20,080 nt of DNA, from positions 1 to 20,080 of the IMG/VR virus record IMGVR_UViG_3300017752_000240. One strand, given 5' to 3'. The stretch's first letter is position 1. Each line of letters starts with the position of its first letter. The notes beneath the pieces are model-generated. The model did not search any database and had not been told where the DNA came from. It saw only the letters and a program-made list of their open reading frames with translations. The stretch is from a virus. Of the stretch, positions 2,000 to 20,080 are shown piece by piece. The position numbers were made by a program, and so were the translations under genes.

Positions 2000-2018
2000 T
2001 TGTTATTGCTTGCGGTGA

Positions 2019-2039
2019 TATATTAGTTTAACTAATATA
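2019..2039. repeat. Dyad TATATTAGT-TTA-ACTAATATA (copy 1 of recurring ATTAG-N5-CTAAT element)
   Basis: Perfect inverted repeat with 9-bp arms and a 3-nt centre. Its core ATTAG-TTTAA-CTAAT (2022-2036) recurs with different spacer bases at 16269-16283 and 18966-18980, and also inside the portal gene at 323-337. The symmetry and the variable centre resemble a binding site for a dimeric regulator; an RNA hairpin is also possible. It overlaps a TATAAT. Confidence 0.6.
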
Positions 2040-14300: not shown

Positions 14301-16267
14301 AATCTCAAAATAAACGATTTGTGAATCGGGTTGGTGACATTCTTGGCCTAGACCTTCAAATCGATCGCAACTGGGACACATCGTCTGTTGAAAAGATACT
14401 GCTCCAAGCAGAGAACGAAGATATTGCTACGTCTGATTTGAAGTCACTAAGAGCCCGCAACATCCGTAAGTTTTTATCAAACGATGTTTTTGATAATTAC
14501 ATTCAAGACCCAAAGAACGGCAAGGTTTACATACAAATTCCGATCCGCGGCGGCGGTAAAAGAGACATTCGCAAACGCCGCAACTTCTTTCCTCGTTCCT
14601 TGAATGAGAATACTTTGATGACCGGGGACGGACCTAACGCGCGTAACTTGGTAGACGTCCTTACGCAGGATTACACGTTTGAGGTCGACGGTATTACATA
14701 CGATTCAAAGAACTGGCGGATGTCCGTGCCAGAGGCGACAAAGTTGGCGGACGATCTGATAGTTAAAGTTCTTTTTGAGCACCCGGATGTTCGTAAAGAA
14801 GAGCCGGACGGCACTGCTTCGCCCGGCATGTCTTCGGCGTTAGGCCGTAAACTAGATAAAGTGCCGACCGCAGCGTTGCGCCATGCCGGACTCCTACACC
14901 CGCCGCAATCTGCGATTATTCAGTATATCCACCACGTAACCCGTAAAGTTGAGTTCGAGAAACGCGGTGGTTCTAAAGAGGTGGACCGCCGTATTAATCT
15001 AATGGCGAACGAAAAAGATAGAGACTGGGCTCGAGCTTCTGTAGACGCAATGCTCGGCCGCGTCGACGCTCAGCTTCATCCTTGGGTGCGCCGGTTTAAC
15101 AGCGTTGAGTCAGTTCACTCAATCTTTACAACGCTTTTGTTCGCAGTCTTTTCGTCACTCCCTGATTTGGCGGCTATCGCTATACGATCAAAGGAGTTTG
15201 GCAACCTAAACTTGATGTTTAATGAAATATACAACGACTTTAATACACGTCTTATTATTGTTACTGATGGAAGTGGTAACGAGATTAGCCGCACAGTTGT
15301 GGCACGCGAAGACGTTAAAGAAGCCTTACAAAAAGCGTACGATTCTGTCCCCGATGGAGGCCGCGTTCTTGAAAGCACAGAAGCAATGGAGCTTGCTAGG
15401 GCAGTAGGAACAGTATCTTTTGAAGGTTTAGATACGGTGTTCGTGTCAGTCGGTGAACTTGATTTTGGCGAAACTTGGTCTCGCCAGTACCTAGAGAAGT
15501 TTTTTGAGGTGACTCAACTTCAAAGATGGACGCGCTACACCCGTATCATTGCCACCGGCGTAGGTCGTGAGTTTATTAAAAACACTGCACGCCACTCTCC
15601 TAACCAACGAGATGCACGATACCTAACTGAACTCGGCCTAACCAGAGAAGAGGTATTAGAGTGGATCGAGGCTGGAGAAGGTTTTGAAAGTGCTGTCGGT
15701 CAAAAAGTTAGAGACGCTATTGTCCGGTTCTCTGAAGAAGCAATTATTAGGCCGAACGCGGCGGAGCGCCCTTTGTGGGCTTCTAGTCCTTACTTACAGT
15801 TTGTATGGCGCTTGAAATCCTACCCTTATTCTTACGGGAACGTTGTTCTAGGTGGTATGGGTCGAGAAATCATGAACCGCTACAGTGAGGACGGTAACTT
15901 TAACGCTGGGGCTCAGTTAGTAGCCATGTCTTTAGCAATGGCTCTTCCGCTTGCGATGATGGGTTGGGTCTTCCGTGAGAAATCCAAAGAGGCCGGGCGA
16001 TTTATTGTTCCTGACTTTATCCTTCCTGAAAAAGGTGGGTTAGCGCGTTACGAATACATGGATGGTTTAGGCCTTATGGCAGAGCTCGTTGATAGAGGCG
16101 GGTTGTTGGGACGTTGGTCTATCGCTCTACAAACAGCAGAGTCTTTCAAGTACGAGGGAATCATGGCCCCTATTACTTCTAACGTGCCGGTTTATGACGC
16201 TTTCGACGATTCGTTTTTTGATGGGGATAGATATCGATTATTTCCCGTGCTAAACAATATACAGTAG
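8345..16267 (+). CDS. Giant polyvalent internal virion protein with metallopeptidase domain and LPD38-like C-terminus
   Basis: 2640 residues, about 40% of the window. Regions: an N-terminal domain (about 1-210, with GEFSLERDGDTWVINDRYDF); a Pro/Glu-rich linker (about 215-340) with two copies of an EGTxLVGxPT module 47 codons apart; Gly/Ala-rich hydrophobic segments (about 600-640, 715-740, 805-830) with AEGSAEGIQE near 773; a zinc-peptidase centre HELGH at 1743-1747, with EEWYAD near 1804-1809 as likely third ligand; and a C-terminal region (about 1860-2640) with hydrophobic stretches at about 2260 and 2523 and an RPLWASSPYLQFVWRLKSYP motif near 2475. The last resembles the LPD38 domain of phage polyvalent proteins, which travel with the DNA and act early in the host. 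The ATG at 8345 lies one base after the previous stop; no good Shine-Dalgarno is present, implying coupled re-initiation. A GTG at 8330 is less likely. Exact role is inferred. Confidence 0.75.
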   Translation: MAQDTQNKPLLGNEARMFLKGVGRQLVPGLETTQFTEDDYSQDYLDALSIVADHYYGADGAKNREAFLEKNLADRAKNFPDVPPDDLEKELSTREARYRKKFEGKGVDYNMVNTLFGEGSIFKSGYKIDSPADEIKTTLGEFSLERDGDTWVINDRYDFSDTSSLGQAISDSKEGEGLMGKAYPLARWIGGKVLQENPDGSSPEDSPVVTIRVPAAPLQVETPVPMPRPDFRSEPEPEPEPEGTVLVGKPTPSEEPKLEDKSEPIEDATPVAAPAEVEQRELPPIPEPEGTKLVGRPTSAAEAELQDKPEPEPEIPEPKAAEVERPEIEPENISVAKPKLSLKPMGELSFSEEIKKADIPAMETVEVEIDDTPVFAAKIPGEGTIISKDKRIVNEVVKSQADDTSLSIALGYSDKKPADSDRVVRVFDDKKRVISEEATNNEGTAAAKIAAERIKPENGNVDVVSTEQGLIERRQRFQTGQPSNPYIGAMRGAGKPVTTYQDAFGSFTPSQINPAAPRNLKEAASRGFYSGTESTIAMGNYFLAIGNAVLGDEEGVEMRMERARHAEARSAIPWSNMAGFEQFLEEPDFGKFLEMSAAYVGVMAPSAVSSLAAALAGGLVGGYAGMAGAAGAVGLGAAGVKAGGGELLKRSVREIIQRKLKGEVLDEAEEAVLQAGYRGLRRGAIVGAFGSEFPMMSGAVAGQFEKAGKEFGRTEALISAGVGVPAAAVGVLSEKFIAENIVKMFMKKGAGQSSSVYTRYAKRVGTAFGLGAAAEGSAEGIQESMISGVRKAIDPSFTNEEYLMNIAEGTFAGAVGGGTFAGGGALTAQTFQEARAMVDKGMGMAANMQAAQEDTGILRLTGPTRLLTGPTQESDNDIRGQANAVVVGNKPAMWIPESQSIADTVTVYDAAGNPFEATVVERSENGGVLVIDQSGQQVVLNMGPTAQSVNVRDPQYELETAGANVQGQKVQDIDDLDGAESAVAGVLEKARGSGQGAELNAIMDINAIRTERKRRSGDPSIKDMRLSDETVGDDAESISAEGEVLADSSDIRGNFDMFDISYGNEIEADQLTQTVATYAPATADSNREADFEDRFEELMRIVDDDEVRQNYEANKDRLSDSAVNFLLKEARAENKRAAAAANVKNVYEEEGYEPSRLIVDVRRGDEGTIAAGQEVLFIQREMTDRDLRTINGKTLPAFLEDTLNRILKDGEEFKGSTKFEIVNRADGVVSPITLDGVIDAGKLINVRFSENAQGAALSKFSAAKAGLLRGISELNLIGYDFLVSGQPMTLGPADIKRAGPGAVAHRKDKITFARLINTKLPSLVDDSPEAIMQNKAERDRELAIVAAMAEDPPNQFAVEAAESRFDRARDKIIARERTLGPESSVRRTKIKERGQLKEVVESTDPAILDPGKPETVGTTMIIVVRDKTTNKMLSRQVIDNANRKSPAFKTALSKARRERVKGTKITYGMKSKEGTRTPTFSGESYLQSRIQPFIVIRSDDVLLRAFLVHPAITDLNVRDTAAQFARDWAAANPEKPRPRITYEELRQDSITQIPSVAESMEGNSEQMAREAAVQAGIANVGGIESSSEVPLTPFLIKYGQKPGANATPSRGRRASRRARKEMDLAQKQARLDTETPAVPPVMGNLGPLTRAVLNKAHELFKFKQKIRIITVKQIQEGQFIGRREAEPFRDALLQAVEDMKGRDSNVQARTITIDNVSVIVVKDQPKASYGKTDDAKRAAVLAHELGHVLFKEEFNKIVNNRSLKNALWAEYKKDVQKIIDEGGDVGQYKVPGSDEDFFTKDGFEEWYADQVASYVYSKASARKDETQAEKKERQRKGREEKVAENHFKKVARLLREFAKKVNEVLGLRLTPNAFFRKYMDNVAEAHRTHVDDQKIMSGGEHVSLDGQIQIDNFIEGLNNKIPKAALDQLEKASEAFYRTRFGEVFNRVINAVETTLSNMEGGKSLSKFFYGKSQSYDQMGYHMAYESQNKRFVNRVGDILGLDLQIDRNWDTSSVEKILLQAENEDIATSDLKSLRARNIRKFLSNDVFDNYIQDPKNGKVYIQIPIRGGGKRDIRKRRNFFPRSLNENTLMTGDGPNARNLVDVLTQDYTFEVDGITYDSKNWRMSVPEATKLADDLIVKVLFEHPDVRKEEPDGTASPGMSSALGRKLDKVPTAALRHAGLLHPPQSAIIQYIHHVTRKVEFEKRGGSKEVDRRINLMANEKDRDWARASVDAMLGRVDAQLHPWVRRFNSVESVHSIFTTLLFAVFSSLPDLAAIAIRSKEFGNLNLMFNEIYNDFNTRLIIVTDGSGNEISRTVVAREDVKEALQKAYDSVPDGGRVLESTEAMELARAVGTVSFEGLDTVFVSVGELDFGETWSRQYLEKFFEVTQLQRWTRYTRIIATGVGREFIKNTARHSPNQRDARYLTELGLTREEVLEWIEAGEGFESAVGQKVRDAIVRFSEEAIIRPNAAERPLWASSPYLQFVWRLKSYPYSYGNVVLGGMGREIMNRYSEDGNFNAGAQLVAMSLAMALPLAMMGWVFREKSKEAGRFIVPDFILPEKGGLARYEYMDGLGLMAELVDRGGLLGRWSIALQTAESFKYEGIMAPITSNVPVYDAFDDSFFDGDRYRLFPVLNNIQ
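9044..9280 (+). repeat. Pro/Glu-rich in-frame repeat within the giant gene
   Basis: Two diverged copies of a module encoding PEPEGTxLVGxPT, followed by an acidic stretch ending in DKxEP, start near 9062 and 9203. The homologous GGT/GGC codons are 141 nt (47 codons) apart. GAACCAGAACCAGAA-type runs make the DNA locally repetitive. It probably encodes an extended flexible linker separating the N-terminal domain from the ejected bulk. Confidence 0.6.
10919..10960 (+). repeat. 21-bp tandem duplication within the giant gene
   Basis: Bases 10919-10939 and 10940-10960 are near-identical 21-mers sharing CTTGACGGGCCC; they encode RLTGPTR then LLTGPTQ. The reading frame is kept, which suggests a recent seven-codon slippage duplication between the hydrophobic region and the central domain. 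Confidence 0.75.
13571..13585 (+). other. HExxH zinc-metallopeptidase motif (codons for HELGH)
   Basis: The codons encode HELGH in the context AAVLAHELGHVLFKEEF, a canonical zincin helix. The acidic EEWYAD about 61 residues downstream fits a third zinc ligand. It lies inside the giant protein at residues 1743-1747. Confidence 0.8.
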
Positions 16268-16268
16268 T

Positions 16269-16283
16269 ATTAGTGGGGCTAAT
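16269..16283. repeat. Dyad ATTAG-TGGGG-CTAAT with the ribosome binding site in its centre (copy 2)
   Basis: The arms ATTAG and CTAAT are perfect complements around five bases that contain the GGGG Shine-Dalgarno (16275-16278) of the gene starting at 16285. It starts 2 nt after the stop of the giant gene and ends 1 nt before the next ATG. In RNA the hairpin would place the Shine-Dalgarno in the loop; as DNA it could be an operator. Same core as at 2022-2036 and 18966-18980. Confidence 0.6.
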
Positions 16284-16284
16284 T

Positions 16285-16575
16285 ATGGCAACAAAGAAAG
16301 ATCCGAGATTAGCTAGAGCTGGAGTGAGTGGCTTTAACAAACCGAAGCGCACACCAAATCACCCCAAGAAGAGCCACGTGGTGGTTGCCAAAGAAGGCGA
16401 CAAAGTAAAGACCATTCGTTTTGGTGAACAAGGAGCAAAAACCGCAGGCAAACCAAAGGCTGGTGAGTCGGCACGTATGAAAGCAAAGCGTAAGAGTTTT
16501 AAGGCCCGTCATGGCCGCAACATTTCTAAAGGGAAAATGTCAGCGGCTTATTGGGCAGACAAGGTGAAGTGGTAA
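16285..16575 (+). CDS. Small basic phage protein at the head of the lysis cassette
   Basis: 96 residues from the ATG at 16285; the GTG at 16273 is rejected because GGGG at 16275-16278 correctly spaces the ATG. Strongly basic (many Lys/Arg, pI clearly alkaline), with GVSGFNKPKRTPNHPKKSHVVVAKEGDKVKTIRFGEQG in the first half and KSFKARHGRNISKGKMSAAYWADKVKW at the C-terminus. I recall near-identical small proteins in marine podoviruses and cyanophages, where they are annotated as domain-of-unknown-function proteins; the exact family number was not verified. The basic, Gly/Lys-rich make-up suggests nucleic-acid binding or a structural role, unproven. Its TAA stop shares a base with the endolysin ATG. 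Confidence 0.7.
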   Translation: MATKKDPRLARAGVSGFNKPKRTPNHPKKSHVVVAKEGDKVKTIRFGEQGAKTAGKPKAGESARMKAKRKSFKARHGRNISKGKMSAAYWADKVKW

Positions 16576-16973
16576 TGGATTGGTCAAGATACCCAAACTT
16601 TAGCCGCGGAGAGTTTGAATGCTCTGCTACAGGTTATTGTGATATGAACCCAGATTTTATGGAGCAGATTCAAATCCTGCGCGAGGTTTACGGTAAACCA
16701 CTGGTAGTAACCAGTGGATACAGAGACCCGATAGAACACCCTATCGAAGCCAACAAGACGCGTCCCGGCTCTCATGCATACGGAGTAGCCGCAGACTTTA
16801 AAGTAGCTTACGGAGCCGCTCACGAGCTTCTTACGTGCGCTATAGAACTTAACGTATTTACGGGCATAGGAATTGCCCAGAAAGGCGATCCAGCCAGTCG
16901 TTTTATACATCTGGATACCGCCACGAGTGAGATGCTTGACGGAGCGCTGCGTCCTACGATCTGGAGTTACTGA
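16575..16973 (+). CDS. Endolysin: peptidase M15 family (D,D/L,D-peptidase-like)
   Basis: 132 residues, the usual size for M15_3-type phage peptidases. The start at 16575 (MDWSRYPNFSRGEFECSATG) overlaps the preceding stop as TAATG, with AAGGTG at 16561-16566; the longer frame using TTG at 16551 is rejected. The zinc site is visible: SGYRDP, then SHAYGVAADF giving H67 and D74, and FIHLD giving H112 plus D114. By family knowledge such enzymes cut peptide bonds of peptidoglycan stem peptides in the periplasm. There is no signal peptide or membrane anchor, so release should depend on the holin encoded directly downstream. Cys16 and Cys22 near the N-terminus could form a disulfide or be incidental. 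Confidence 0.88.
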   Translation: MDWSRYPNFSRGEFECSATGYCDMNPDFMEQIQILREVYGKPLVVTSGYRDPIEHPIEANKTRPGSHAYGVAADFKVAYGAAHELLTCAIELNVFTGIGIAQKGDPASRFIHLDTATSEMLDGALRPTIWSY

Positions 16974-17338
16974 TGTTACAGAGTTTGTTTGGTCCAGTTG
17001 CAGCCGTTGCGACAAAGTTTATGGAAGGCCGTCAAAAGAAAGCCGAGCTTAAAGCCCGTGTAGAAGAAGCCAAAGTTAACGCGAAGATTAAGAAGTTGGA
17101 GCAAGACGGCGGCTGGGAAGAGAAAGCTATGGACGCTTCGGCGGATTCGTGGAAAGACGAGGCCTGGACAATTTGCTTTATCGCGATCATATGCGGGAGC
17201 TTCATTCCTGCGGCACAGCCGTACATGCAGCAAGGTTTTGATTTCCTTCGTACCGCTCCCGAGTGGATTCAATGGGGCATTTTGGCATCTATAGGCGCGA
17301 GCTTCGGCCTCAAGTCTATTGGTAAATTGAAAGGTTAG
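16973..17338 (+). CDS. Holin, 3TM / GTA-holin-like
   Basis: 121 residues; ATG overlaps the endolysin stop (TGATG), with GGAG at 16963-16966. An N-terminal weakly hydrophobic segment (LFGPVAAVATKFM) is followed by a highly charged helix (residues about 18-50, Lys/Glu-rich), then the SWKDEAWTICFIAIICGSFIPAA segment (membrane helix about 64-81) and WIQWGILASIGASFGLK (about 98-113). SWKDE before a membrane helix and a terminal GASFG segment match the holin family found in alphaproteobacterial phages and gene transfer agents. Holins oligomerise in the inner membrane and open it at a set time, releasing the endolysin. Adjacent endolysin strongly supports the call. No spanin gene was recognised beside it. 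Confidence 0.8.
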   Translation: MLQSLFGPVAAVATKFMEGRQKKAELKARVEEAKVNAKIKKLEQDGGWEEKAMDASADSWKDEAWTICFIAIICGSFIPAAQPYMQQGFDFLRTAPEWIQWGILASIGASFGLKSIGKLKG

Positions 17339-18965: not shown

Positions 18966-18980
18966 ATTAGTAACGCTAAT
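18966..18980. repeat. Dyad ATTAG-TAACG-CTAAT before the tail fibre gene (copy 3)
   Basis: Perfect 5-bp arms with a 5-nt centre, 2 nt after the stop at 18963 and 14 nt before the fibre ATG. As in copies 1 and 2, the core is preceded by T and the centre begins with T (TATTAGTnnnnCTAAT). The Shine-Dalgarno (GAGG, 18983-18986) lies outside the dyad here. Confidence 0.6.
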
Positions 18981-18994
18981 TCGAGGTAATTGAG

Positions 18995-20080
18995 ATGGCT
19001 GTAAAGTTTTCAAATAACGGTAAGACCACACTAGCGTCTGACATAACAAATTCGGCTACCAGTATCACGGTAAACGACGGCTCCGTTTATCCGTCATTAA
19101 GTGGTGGCGACACGTTTTTTATGACGCTTGAAGACCCGAGCGGAAACATAGAAATTGTTTCCGTCTCAGCCGTAAGTTCAAACACTCTTACGGTCACGCG
19201 CGCTCAAGAAGGCACAACGGCTCGTGCTTTTAGTGCTGGTGATAAAGCTGAGAACCGTTTGACTGCCGCCGGTCTAAACTCATTTGTAGCTGATTCCGGC
19301 GATACAATGAGCGGTAATCTGGGTGTTACAGGGAATATTACCGTTACTGGAACAGTCGATGGCCGAGATGTTGCAACAGATGGCTCAAAGCTGGATGGCA
19401 TTGAAGCATCAGCCACAGCAGACCAAACAGCCGCAGAAATACGCACACTGGTCGAAAGCGCGACAGACAGCAATGTGTTCACTGATGCAGATCATACTAA
19501 GCTCAATGGCATAGCTGCGAGTGCAACCGCTGTCTCAAGCCTAACTGATCTTAGTATTTCAGACGGAACAAATGGTCAGGCTCTGAAGACAGACGGAGCC
19601 GGAAACTTTAGTTTTGGTGACGTAGCTTCCAGCACAGCATTTGCAGATGTAACAGGCAAGCCAACAACCATCGCTGGCTATGGCATCACTGACGCTTTTG
19701 ATGGCCAGACTACTAGTCTCACTGGCGGTAGCTTTAGCCATTCTGGAAATTTCCAATTCCTAAATGGTGGTTCGGCGCAAAATGTCTTAGCACGTTCCGT
19801 CTACGCCGGAACATCTTATGCGGCGGCGACTGCTAACGCTGGCGAAGTAGATGCACTTAATGGCTATCGAGTGGCTGGTACAAGTGTCATTGACACGAAT
19901 AGATACGTATATGCACCTAGGTTTTATCCAGGTGACGGAAACGATGGTTATTTCTACAGTGACGCTAATGGTCGCACAGCTTTCACCGGCGGTGACTTTT
20001 ACATAAGGGCAGAGGTGGGTAACACTTACCTTTATGCGACTAATACCTATTTAGGTTCTGGCTCTGGCGATACCATTCAC
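18995..20080 (+). CDS. Tail fibre protein, N-terminal part (3' end outside window)
   Basis: Open from the ATG at 18995 (GAGG 8 nt upstream) to the end of the window: 362 residues without a stop. The N-terminal domain (MAVKFSNNGKTTLASDITNSATSITV, then GGDTFFMTLEDPSGNIEIVSVSAV and VTRAQEGTTARAFSAGDKAENRLTAAGL, about residues 1-95) is a common phage fibre anchoring module. Two copies of a KLxGIxASATA repeat follow (near residues 129 and 166: DGSKLDGIEASATA and DHTKLNGIAASATA), then DVTGKPTTIAGYGITDAFDG near 215-235, all common in fibres of marine phages. The remaining part is Gly/Ser/Tyr-rich beta sequence. The protein likely binds the host receptor; a chaperone or receptor tip may lie beyond the right edge. 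Confidence 0.8.
   Translation, partial: MAVKFSNNGKTTLASDITNSATSITVNDGSVYPSLSGGDTFFMTLEDPSGNIEIVSVSAVSSNTLTVTRAQEGTTARAFSAGDKAENRLTAAGLNSFVADSGDTMSGNLGVTGNITVTGTVDGRDVATDGSKLDGIEASATADQTAAEIRTLVESATDSNVFTDADHTKLNGIAASATAVSSLTDLSISDGTNGQALKTDGAGNFSFGDVASSTAFADVTGKPTTIAGYGITDAFDGQTTSLTGGSFSHSGNFQFLNGGSAQNVLARSVYAGTSYAAATANAGEVDALNGYRVAGTSVIDTNRYVYAPRFYPGDGNDGYFYSDANGRTAFTGGDFYIRAEVGNTYLYATNTYLGSGSGDTIH

Follow-up and report, generated by a model that had tools for sequence, protein, structure and literature searches.

The 15-bp dyad ATTAG-TGGGG-CTAAT at positions 16269 to 16283 of the window (the whole 20,080-nucleotide stretch of viral DNA analyzed here) is very probably an operator for the lambda-CI-like lysogeny repressor of its phage. 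An operator blocking transcription into the lysis genes had been proposed in the initial annotation; the identity of the site as an operator is well supported by the recurrence of its arms and by their association with a regulator, and the block itself we infer.

Setting of the dyad at the lysis junction

The dyad, which has no strand, comprises a left arm ATTAG (16269 to 16273), a centre TGGGG (16274 to 16278) and a right arm CTAAT (16279 to 16283), followed by a single T (16284) and an ATG (16285 to 16287). It fills a 17-nt gap between the stop codon (TAG, 16265 to 16267) of a giant structural gene of 2,645 amino acids and the start of a gene for a 96-amino-acid basic protein, p96 (16285 to 16575, plus strand; profile match to phrog_7595, function unknown). 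The next gene (16575 to 16973, plus strand) encodes an endolysin by profile match (Peptidase_M15_3; phrog_894, M15 peptidase), and the one after it (16973 to 17338, plus strand) matches phrog_2524, of unknown function, whose product is a holin candidate from its position beside the endolysin. GGGG at 16275 to 16278 (plus strand) forms a Shine-Dalgarno sequence in the operator centre with a spacing of 6 nt to the ATG. The small basic protein heading a lysis cassette, the GGGG in the 5-nt centre and the start codon one base past the right arm were thus as originally described; the dyad is also real, but it is 15 bp long and ends two bases earlier than was first given.

A lone dyad of this 5-N5-5 geometry is ordinary, since the window holds 27 of them (174 with loops of 3 to 8 nt). 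The site at 16269 is lifted beyond chance by the recurrence of the same arms, not by the dyad alone. ATTAG-N5-CTAAT occurs four times in the window (at 323, 2022, 16269 and 18966), and the reversed pattern, used as a control, does not occur. The initial annotation makes no mention of further copies. Pattern search located the three other copies, none with a strand. ATTAG-TTTAA-CTAAT (2022 to 2036) overlaps the -10 element of the capsid promoter, and ATTAG-TAACG-CTAAT (18966 to 18980) separates a fibre-region gene from its downstream neighbour (ATG at 18995); the latter is kept in the related record G040, with the centre CTACG. ATTAG-GATTA-CTAAT (323 to 337) lies inside the portal reading frame, where the single change relative to G040 turns AGG into AGA, both Arg codons (by eye). 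Because its sixth base breaks the Y..R consensus of the other sites and the change to G040 is synonymous, this copy may be fortuitous.

The lysis-junction dyad is found at the same place with intact arms in three related records: G039 (centre TGGGG), G040 (TGGAG) and G007 (CGGAG, with a TTG start codon), so that the centre differs from that of the window in two of the three. An alignment of the window with G040 around 16269 has 136 columns, of which 109 are identical, and the single difference within the dyad falls in the centre. A chance origin, with an isolated 5-bp dyad holding a Shine-Dalgarno sequence by coincidence, would accord with the 27 dyads of the same geometry and with a scan of the whole collection, in which the pattern ATTAGNGGRGCTAATN{0,5}ATG matched 68 stretches and control arms (GATTA) matched at least 120; the Shine-Dalgarno-in-operator arrangement therefore shows no bulk enrichment across the collection. 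Fourfold use of one arm in the window and conservation of the junction in three records, with the centre changed in two, make this explanation extremely unlikely. Only the minority of matches in contigs with several such dyads are informative: more than one was present in 9 of the 68 ATTAG stretches compared with 2 of 80 control loci among the matches listed, and some of the nine (e.g., L314) resemble matches in coding sequence.

Recurrence of the dyad in related phages

The motif was present in 19 of 30 related records, with up to 10 copies each, and the reversed control was absent from all 30; G008 holds 10 copies in 59 kb and G041 holds 15 in 61 kb. Relatives were collected by capsid protein instead of by p96 because the p96 gene is mobile: it is shared by a wide range of phages, and many relatives have it upstream of the capsid gene, not the lysis genes. 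As a query, p96 returned 80 loci (L005 to L084), mostly from other phages, with 4 copies of ATTAG-N5-CTAAT in 594 kb, and the C terminus of the giant reading frame returned one conspecific contig only. In the 80 loci collected by major capsid protein (894 kb), ATTAG was the commonest 5-N5-5 arm, with 66 copies. Megablast of the window against named phages gave no matches, and neither this dyad nor the AGTAC dyad described below occurs in KPP25, which by capsid is the nearest named phage.

A nonredundant set of 244 sites, which excludes identical 45-nt contexts and copies less than 60 nt from a contig end, gave the consensus T-ATTAGY-NNN-RCTAAT-A, with fixed arms and a nearly free centre. ATTAG was itself the search pattern, so the evidence for constant arms comes from the census covering every arm and from orthologous places. 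The copy at 16269 has T after the right arm, where A is commonest. Sites are mostly intergenic, 53 of 244 lying deep inside called reading frames compared with 4,139 of 4,880 random positions. They are also mostly single and dispersed, with one close pair (in G028) and no clustered tandem operators at two promoters. In a Motiliproteus genome of 4.2 Mb, all seven dyads fall between 1362365 and 1422530 of one contig, a prophage-like stretch of 60 kb.

In nine loci (L211, L219, L223, L228, L230, L232, L233, L249 and L255), a dyad was also seen within conserved sequence towards the end of a long reading frame. That sequence reads ...HDEIV.IS.AN... in the sense direction (by eye), the operator sequence being kept within coding sequence.

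Probable operator copies in promoters

The copy at 2022 is embedded in the capsid promoter, TTGCGG-17-TAATAT (2010 to 2038, plus strand). Of the 80 capsid loci, five of which have too little upstream sequence, 38 have a dyad between -210 and -250 relative to the capsid ATG. In all 38 a TTG stands at exactly -12 and is followed by TAATAT in the frame TTGNNN-17-TAATAT, and the right arm falls within the -10 element. Over the full set, the 488 orientations include 81 with TTG at -12 (79 of 244 sites); other offsets from 6 to 39 reach at most 39 and usually 3 to 20. A second operator-promoter lies 5.8 to 7.7 kb upstream of the capsid gene in relatives, and an operator-promoter of the form GGGTGT-17-TAATAT precedes the homologue of gp17341. 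The dyad is likewise set in a promoter frame at the junction after the giant gene in G023 and G025 and after the lysis genes in G008.

In relatives the motif is set in promoter frames at three late positions, which raises the alternative that 16269 marks an intact or decayed promoter of the lysis cassette, with the operator in the spacer and -10 element as at the capsid gene, and CTAATT could be a degraded CTAATAT. Neither the TTG at -12 nor TAATAT is present at 16269, however. The -35 place reads ATATAC and the -10 element would be TAATTA, the TTG is missing in G007, G039 and G040 as well as in the window, and no plus-strand sigma70-like site was found between 14000 and 18600. The resulting transcript would also be without a Shine-Dalgarno sequence, an awkwardness that had been pointed out at the outset. 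A lysis-cassette promoter at this site is accordingly very unlikely.

The capsid promoter is separated from the capsid ATG by a structured leader RNA of approximately 200 nt (2039 to 2251 in the window), for which no Rfam family came near its gathering score. It comprises seven helices over 24 relatives, with 96.6% of cells paired, and covariation is strong: 13 of 28 pairs are changed on both sides, and none of 500 shuffles reached the covariation score.

A CI-like regulator and two classes of probable operator

In two related records with the ATTAG dyad, G023 and G008, the gene for an HTH_3 protein lies near that of a tyrosine integrase (Pfam matches for both HTH proteins and the G023 integrase; the G008 integrase by eye). 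G020 and G021, which belong to a second class with AGTAC arms, encode relatives of this regulator with a different recognition helix. A scan with these four regulators, blind to the dyad, fetched 80 loci (1.09 Mb) containing 194 ATTAG dyads; the next most frequent arm had 27 copies. Loci with a Q[GS]A helix carried ATTAG dyads in 58 of 71 cases and AGTAC dyads in 2 of 71 (one each), those with a QSNF helix carried ATTAG in 0 of 7 and AGTAC-N5-GTACT in 5 of 7, and the two loci with other helices carried neither. The helix classes were defined after the helices had been seen, and their pattern includes L273, L274 and L275 as well; Fisher tests of helix against arms ignore relatedness and near-duplicate contigs. 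Of the 71 Q[GS]A loci, 13 have no ATTAG dyad, and a search of 10 of these (all but L208, L218 and L227) for a substitute motif found none. The Motiliproteus regulator (at 1421833, in the same 60-kb stretch as all seven dyads) has a third helix, QSSISQMMNA, yet its dyads are ATTAG; helix and arms are therefore not related one to one.

AGTAC-N5-GTACT replaces the motif in part of the relatives that lack ATTAG, with the promoter kept (9 of 80 capsid loci). The AGTAC class was found in 4 of 19 records, none of which has ATTAG, and the two classes are mutually exclusive in all 19, G000 included. In L175 and L176 the class is swapped inside the same gp17341 promoter frame, in the form GTACTAATAGTAC. 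Exceptions aside, site and repressor specificity thus appear to diverge together, ATTAG with Q[GS]A and AGTAC with QSNF.

The sister phage of the window is represented by G043 and G040, which overlap by 126 nt at 99.2%. It encodes a regulator with the helix QGAFSQYLNG beside an integrase-like frame (by eye), and the best solved relatives of this regulator are lambda CI chains (E 4.7e-7). The window and G003, both fragments, gave only a 28% match over 46 amino acids (E 0.93) when searched for the regulator, the gene for which would, in the phage of the window, sit outside the 20-kb record.

Proposed mechanism and comparison with known systems

Fixed arms and a nearly free centre give the picture of a dimer on two half-sites: a repressor dimer would read both arms and ignore the central bases. 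Where a copy covers the -10 element of a promoter, as at the capsid gene and elsewhere, bound repressor would keep RNA polymerase away, and at tight junctions free of promoters, 16269 among them, it would stop read-through by passing polymerase in a stoperator-like manner. Such a block at 16269 would cover p96, the endolysin and the holin candidate. Because the associated protein is a CI-like regulator encoded near an integrase, silencing of the lysis genes in lysogens is the likely role of the site rather than the timing of lysis first suggested, which found no support as such. Physical binding, dimerization, the elongation block, lysogen silencing and the presence of the regulator in the phage of the window are what we infer from the sequences.

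Operators of lambda CI are pseudo-palindromes of approximately 17 bp whose arms are read by a CI-type HTH and which overlap promoter elements; they form clustered triplets at two promoters. The ATTAG sites would resemble them in being palindromic, in overlapping promoters and in their association with a CI-like HTH (the lambda CI match noted above), but differ in being mostly single and genome-wide.

Dispersed phage operators are already known from L5, P1 and SPbeta. In L5 and other Cluster A phages, many repressor sites (stoperators) are spread over the genome, some in promoters and most in short intergenic spaces, and their sequence diverges between related phages along with the repressor; the L5 sites are asymmetric 13-mers, each recognized by a repressor monomer, and their orientation follows that of transcription (PMC6550527, PMC9283540). 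Action on passing polymerase has been proposed for them (PMC9283540). The ATTAG sites are similar in being numerous per genome, mostly intergenic, partly in promoters and divergent along with the repressor, whereas they are palindromic and without orientation, are associated with a lambda-CI-like HTH and are only presumed to block elongation. The 22 operators of P1 C1, dispersed over the genome, silence lytic genes and share an asymmetric 17-mer consensus (PMC8546580); the dispersal is alike, but the ATTAG site is a palindrome of 15 to 17 bp. In SPbeta, a repeated 15-bp element (SPBRE) in intergenic and promoter regions is bound by the master repressor MrpR, which has a tyrosine-recombinase fold (PMC10516654). 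A repeated 15-bp element is common to both, and the candidate regulator here is an HTH_3 protein instead.

Among the papers listed on stoperators (also marine), on operators over Shine-Dalgarno sequences, on Kochitakasuvirus and KPP25, on P1 C1 and on SPbeta, none was seen to describe the motif, which is not proof of absence. On the basis of this limited search, the palindromic CI-like version, the co-varying classes and the centres bearing a Shine-Dalgarno sequence appear to be new. We tentatively propose, as something a little short of an even chance, a second and unrelated stoperator-like immunity system, in which a CI-like dimer on palindromic junction sites of temperate phages would stop elongation in both directions, the free centre would admit a Shine-Dalgarno sequence and the two operator classes would correspond to two immunity groups. 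If this is true, a large group of uncultured, mostly metagenomic phages gains a readable lysogeny switch, and operator arms would predict the repressor recognition helix and hence which phages are mutually immune. The palindromic version would also test the need for an oriented site in elongation block, the L5 stoperators being asymmetric and orientation dependent.

Shine-Dalgarno sequence in the centre and a possible RNA hairpin

At the lysis junction the 15 bases that take part in ribosome binding would also control transcription, and one element may serve as both off-switch and translation start for lysis and other genes. By strict scoring, a Shine-Dalgarno sequence lies in the centre of 8 of 244 ATTAG sites, four of which are this lysis junction; in the AGTAC class it does so at 6 of 21 sites among the matches listed (start codons by eye). 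Its location in the centre is probably due to the junction being only 17 nt long and the centre being free to vary.

CsrA/RsmA sites place the Shine-Dalgarno sequence in a hairpin loop before the start codon, and CsrA binds GGA in such loops. The dyad at 16269 resembles them in that its possible hairpin would carry this sequence in the loop, ahead of a start codon, and it had been suggested that the sequence would be exposed in RNA or maskable by a bound protein. Translation of p96 and the lysis genes would then be controlled in this way. Consistent with this, the isolated 15-mer folds at -1.5 kcal/mol, folding in context is predicted for two AGTAC-class sites whose loop contains a Shine-Dalgarno sequence (pair probabilities of 0.68 and 0.99), and relatives encode CsrA, the loops of G007 and G040 containing GGA. 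The window loop, TGGGG, has no GGA, however, and at this junction GGA is confined to G007 and G040. The probability of arm pairing in context is at most 0.12 in the window and the three orthologous junctions (an analysis that used a mononucleotide shuffle), and folding energy over four context lengths is no better than that of shuffles (z scores of 0.54, -0.21, -0.23 and -0.55). The arms are fixed in sequence rather than covarying, as the excess of ATTAG over the next arm in the regulator-fetched loci illustrates, and most copies lie outside 5' leaders, many of them inside a promoter and not its transcript (e.g., 38 of 38 at the capsid promoter). An exposed or maskable Shine-Dalgarno sequence in RNA is thus highly improbable at 16269, and this reading was rejected for the ATTAG class on the grounds of folding no better than shuffles and of the low pairing probability in all four orthologues. 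It may hold for the two AGTAC-class sites predicted to fold.

AGTAC-AGG(A/G)G-GTACT precedes an ATG at L190:6960 and L193:5844, and RNA of the former is predicted to expose the Shine-Dalgarno sequence fully in the loop. A search of the literature on phage CsrA found nothing. CsrA-family proteins (PF02599) are encoded in relatives at L166:7135-7320, L170:6208-6408 and L167:6404-6601, and in L166 and L170 an operator dyad lies between the CsrA-family gene and the next gene.
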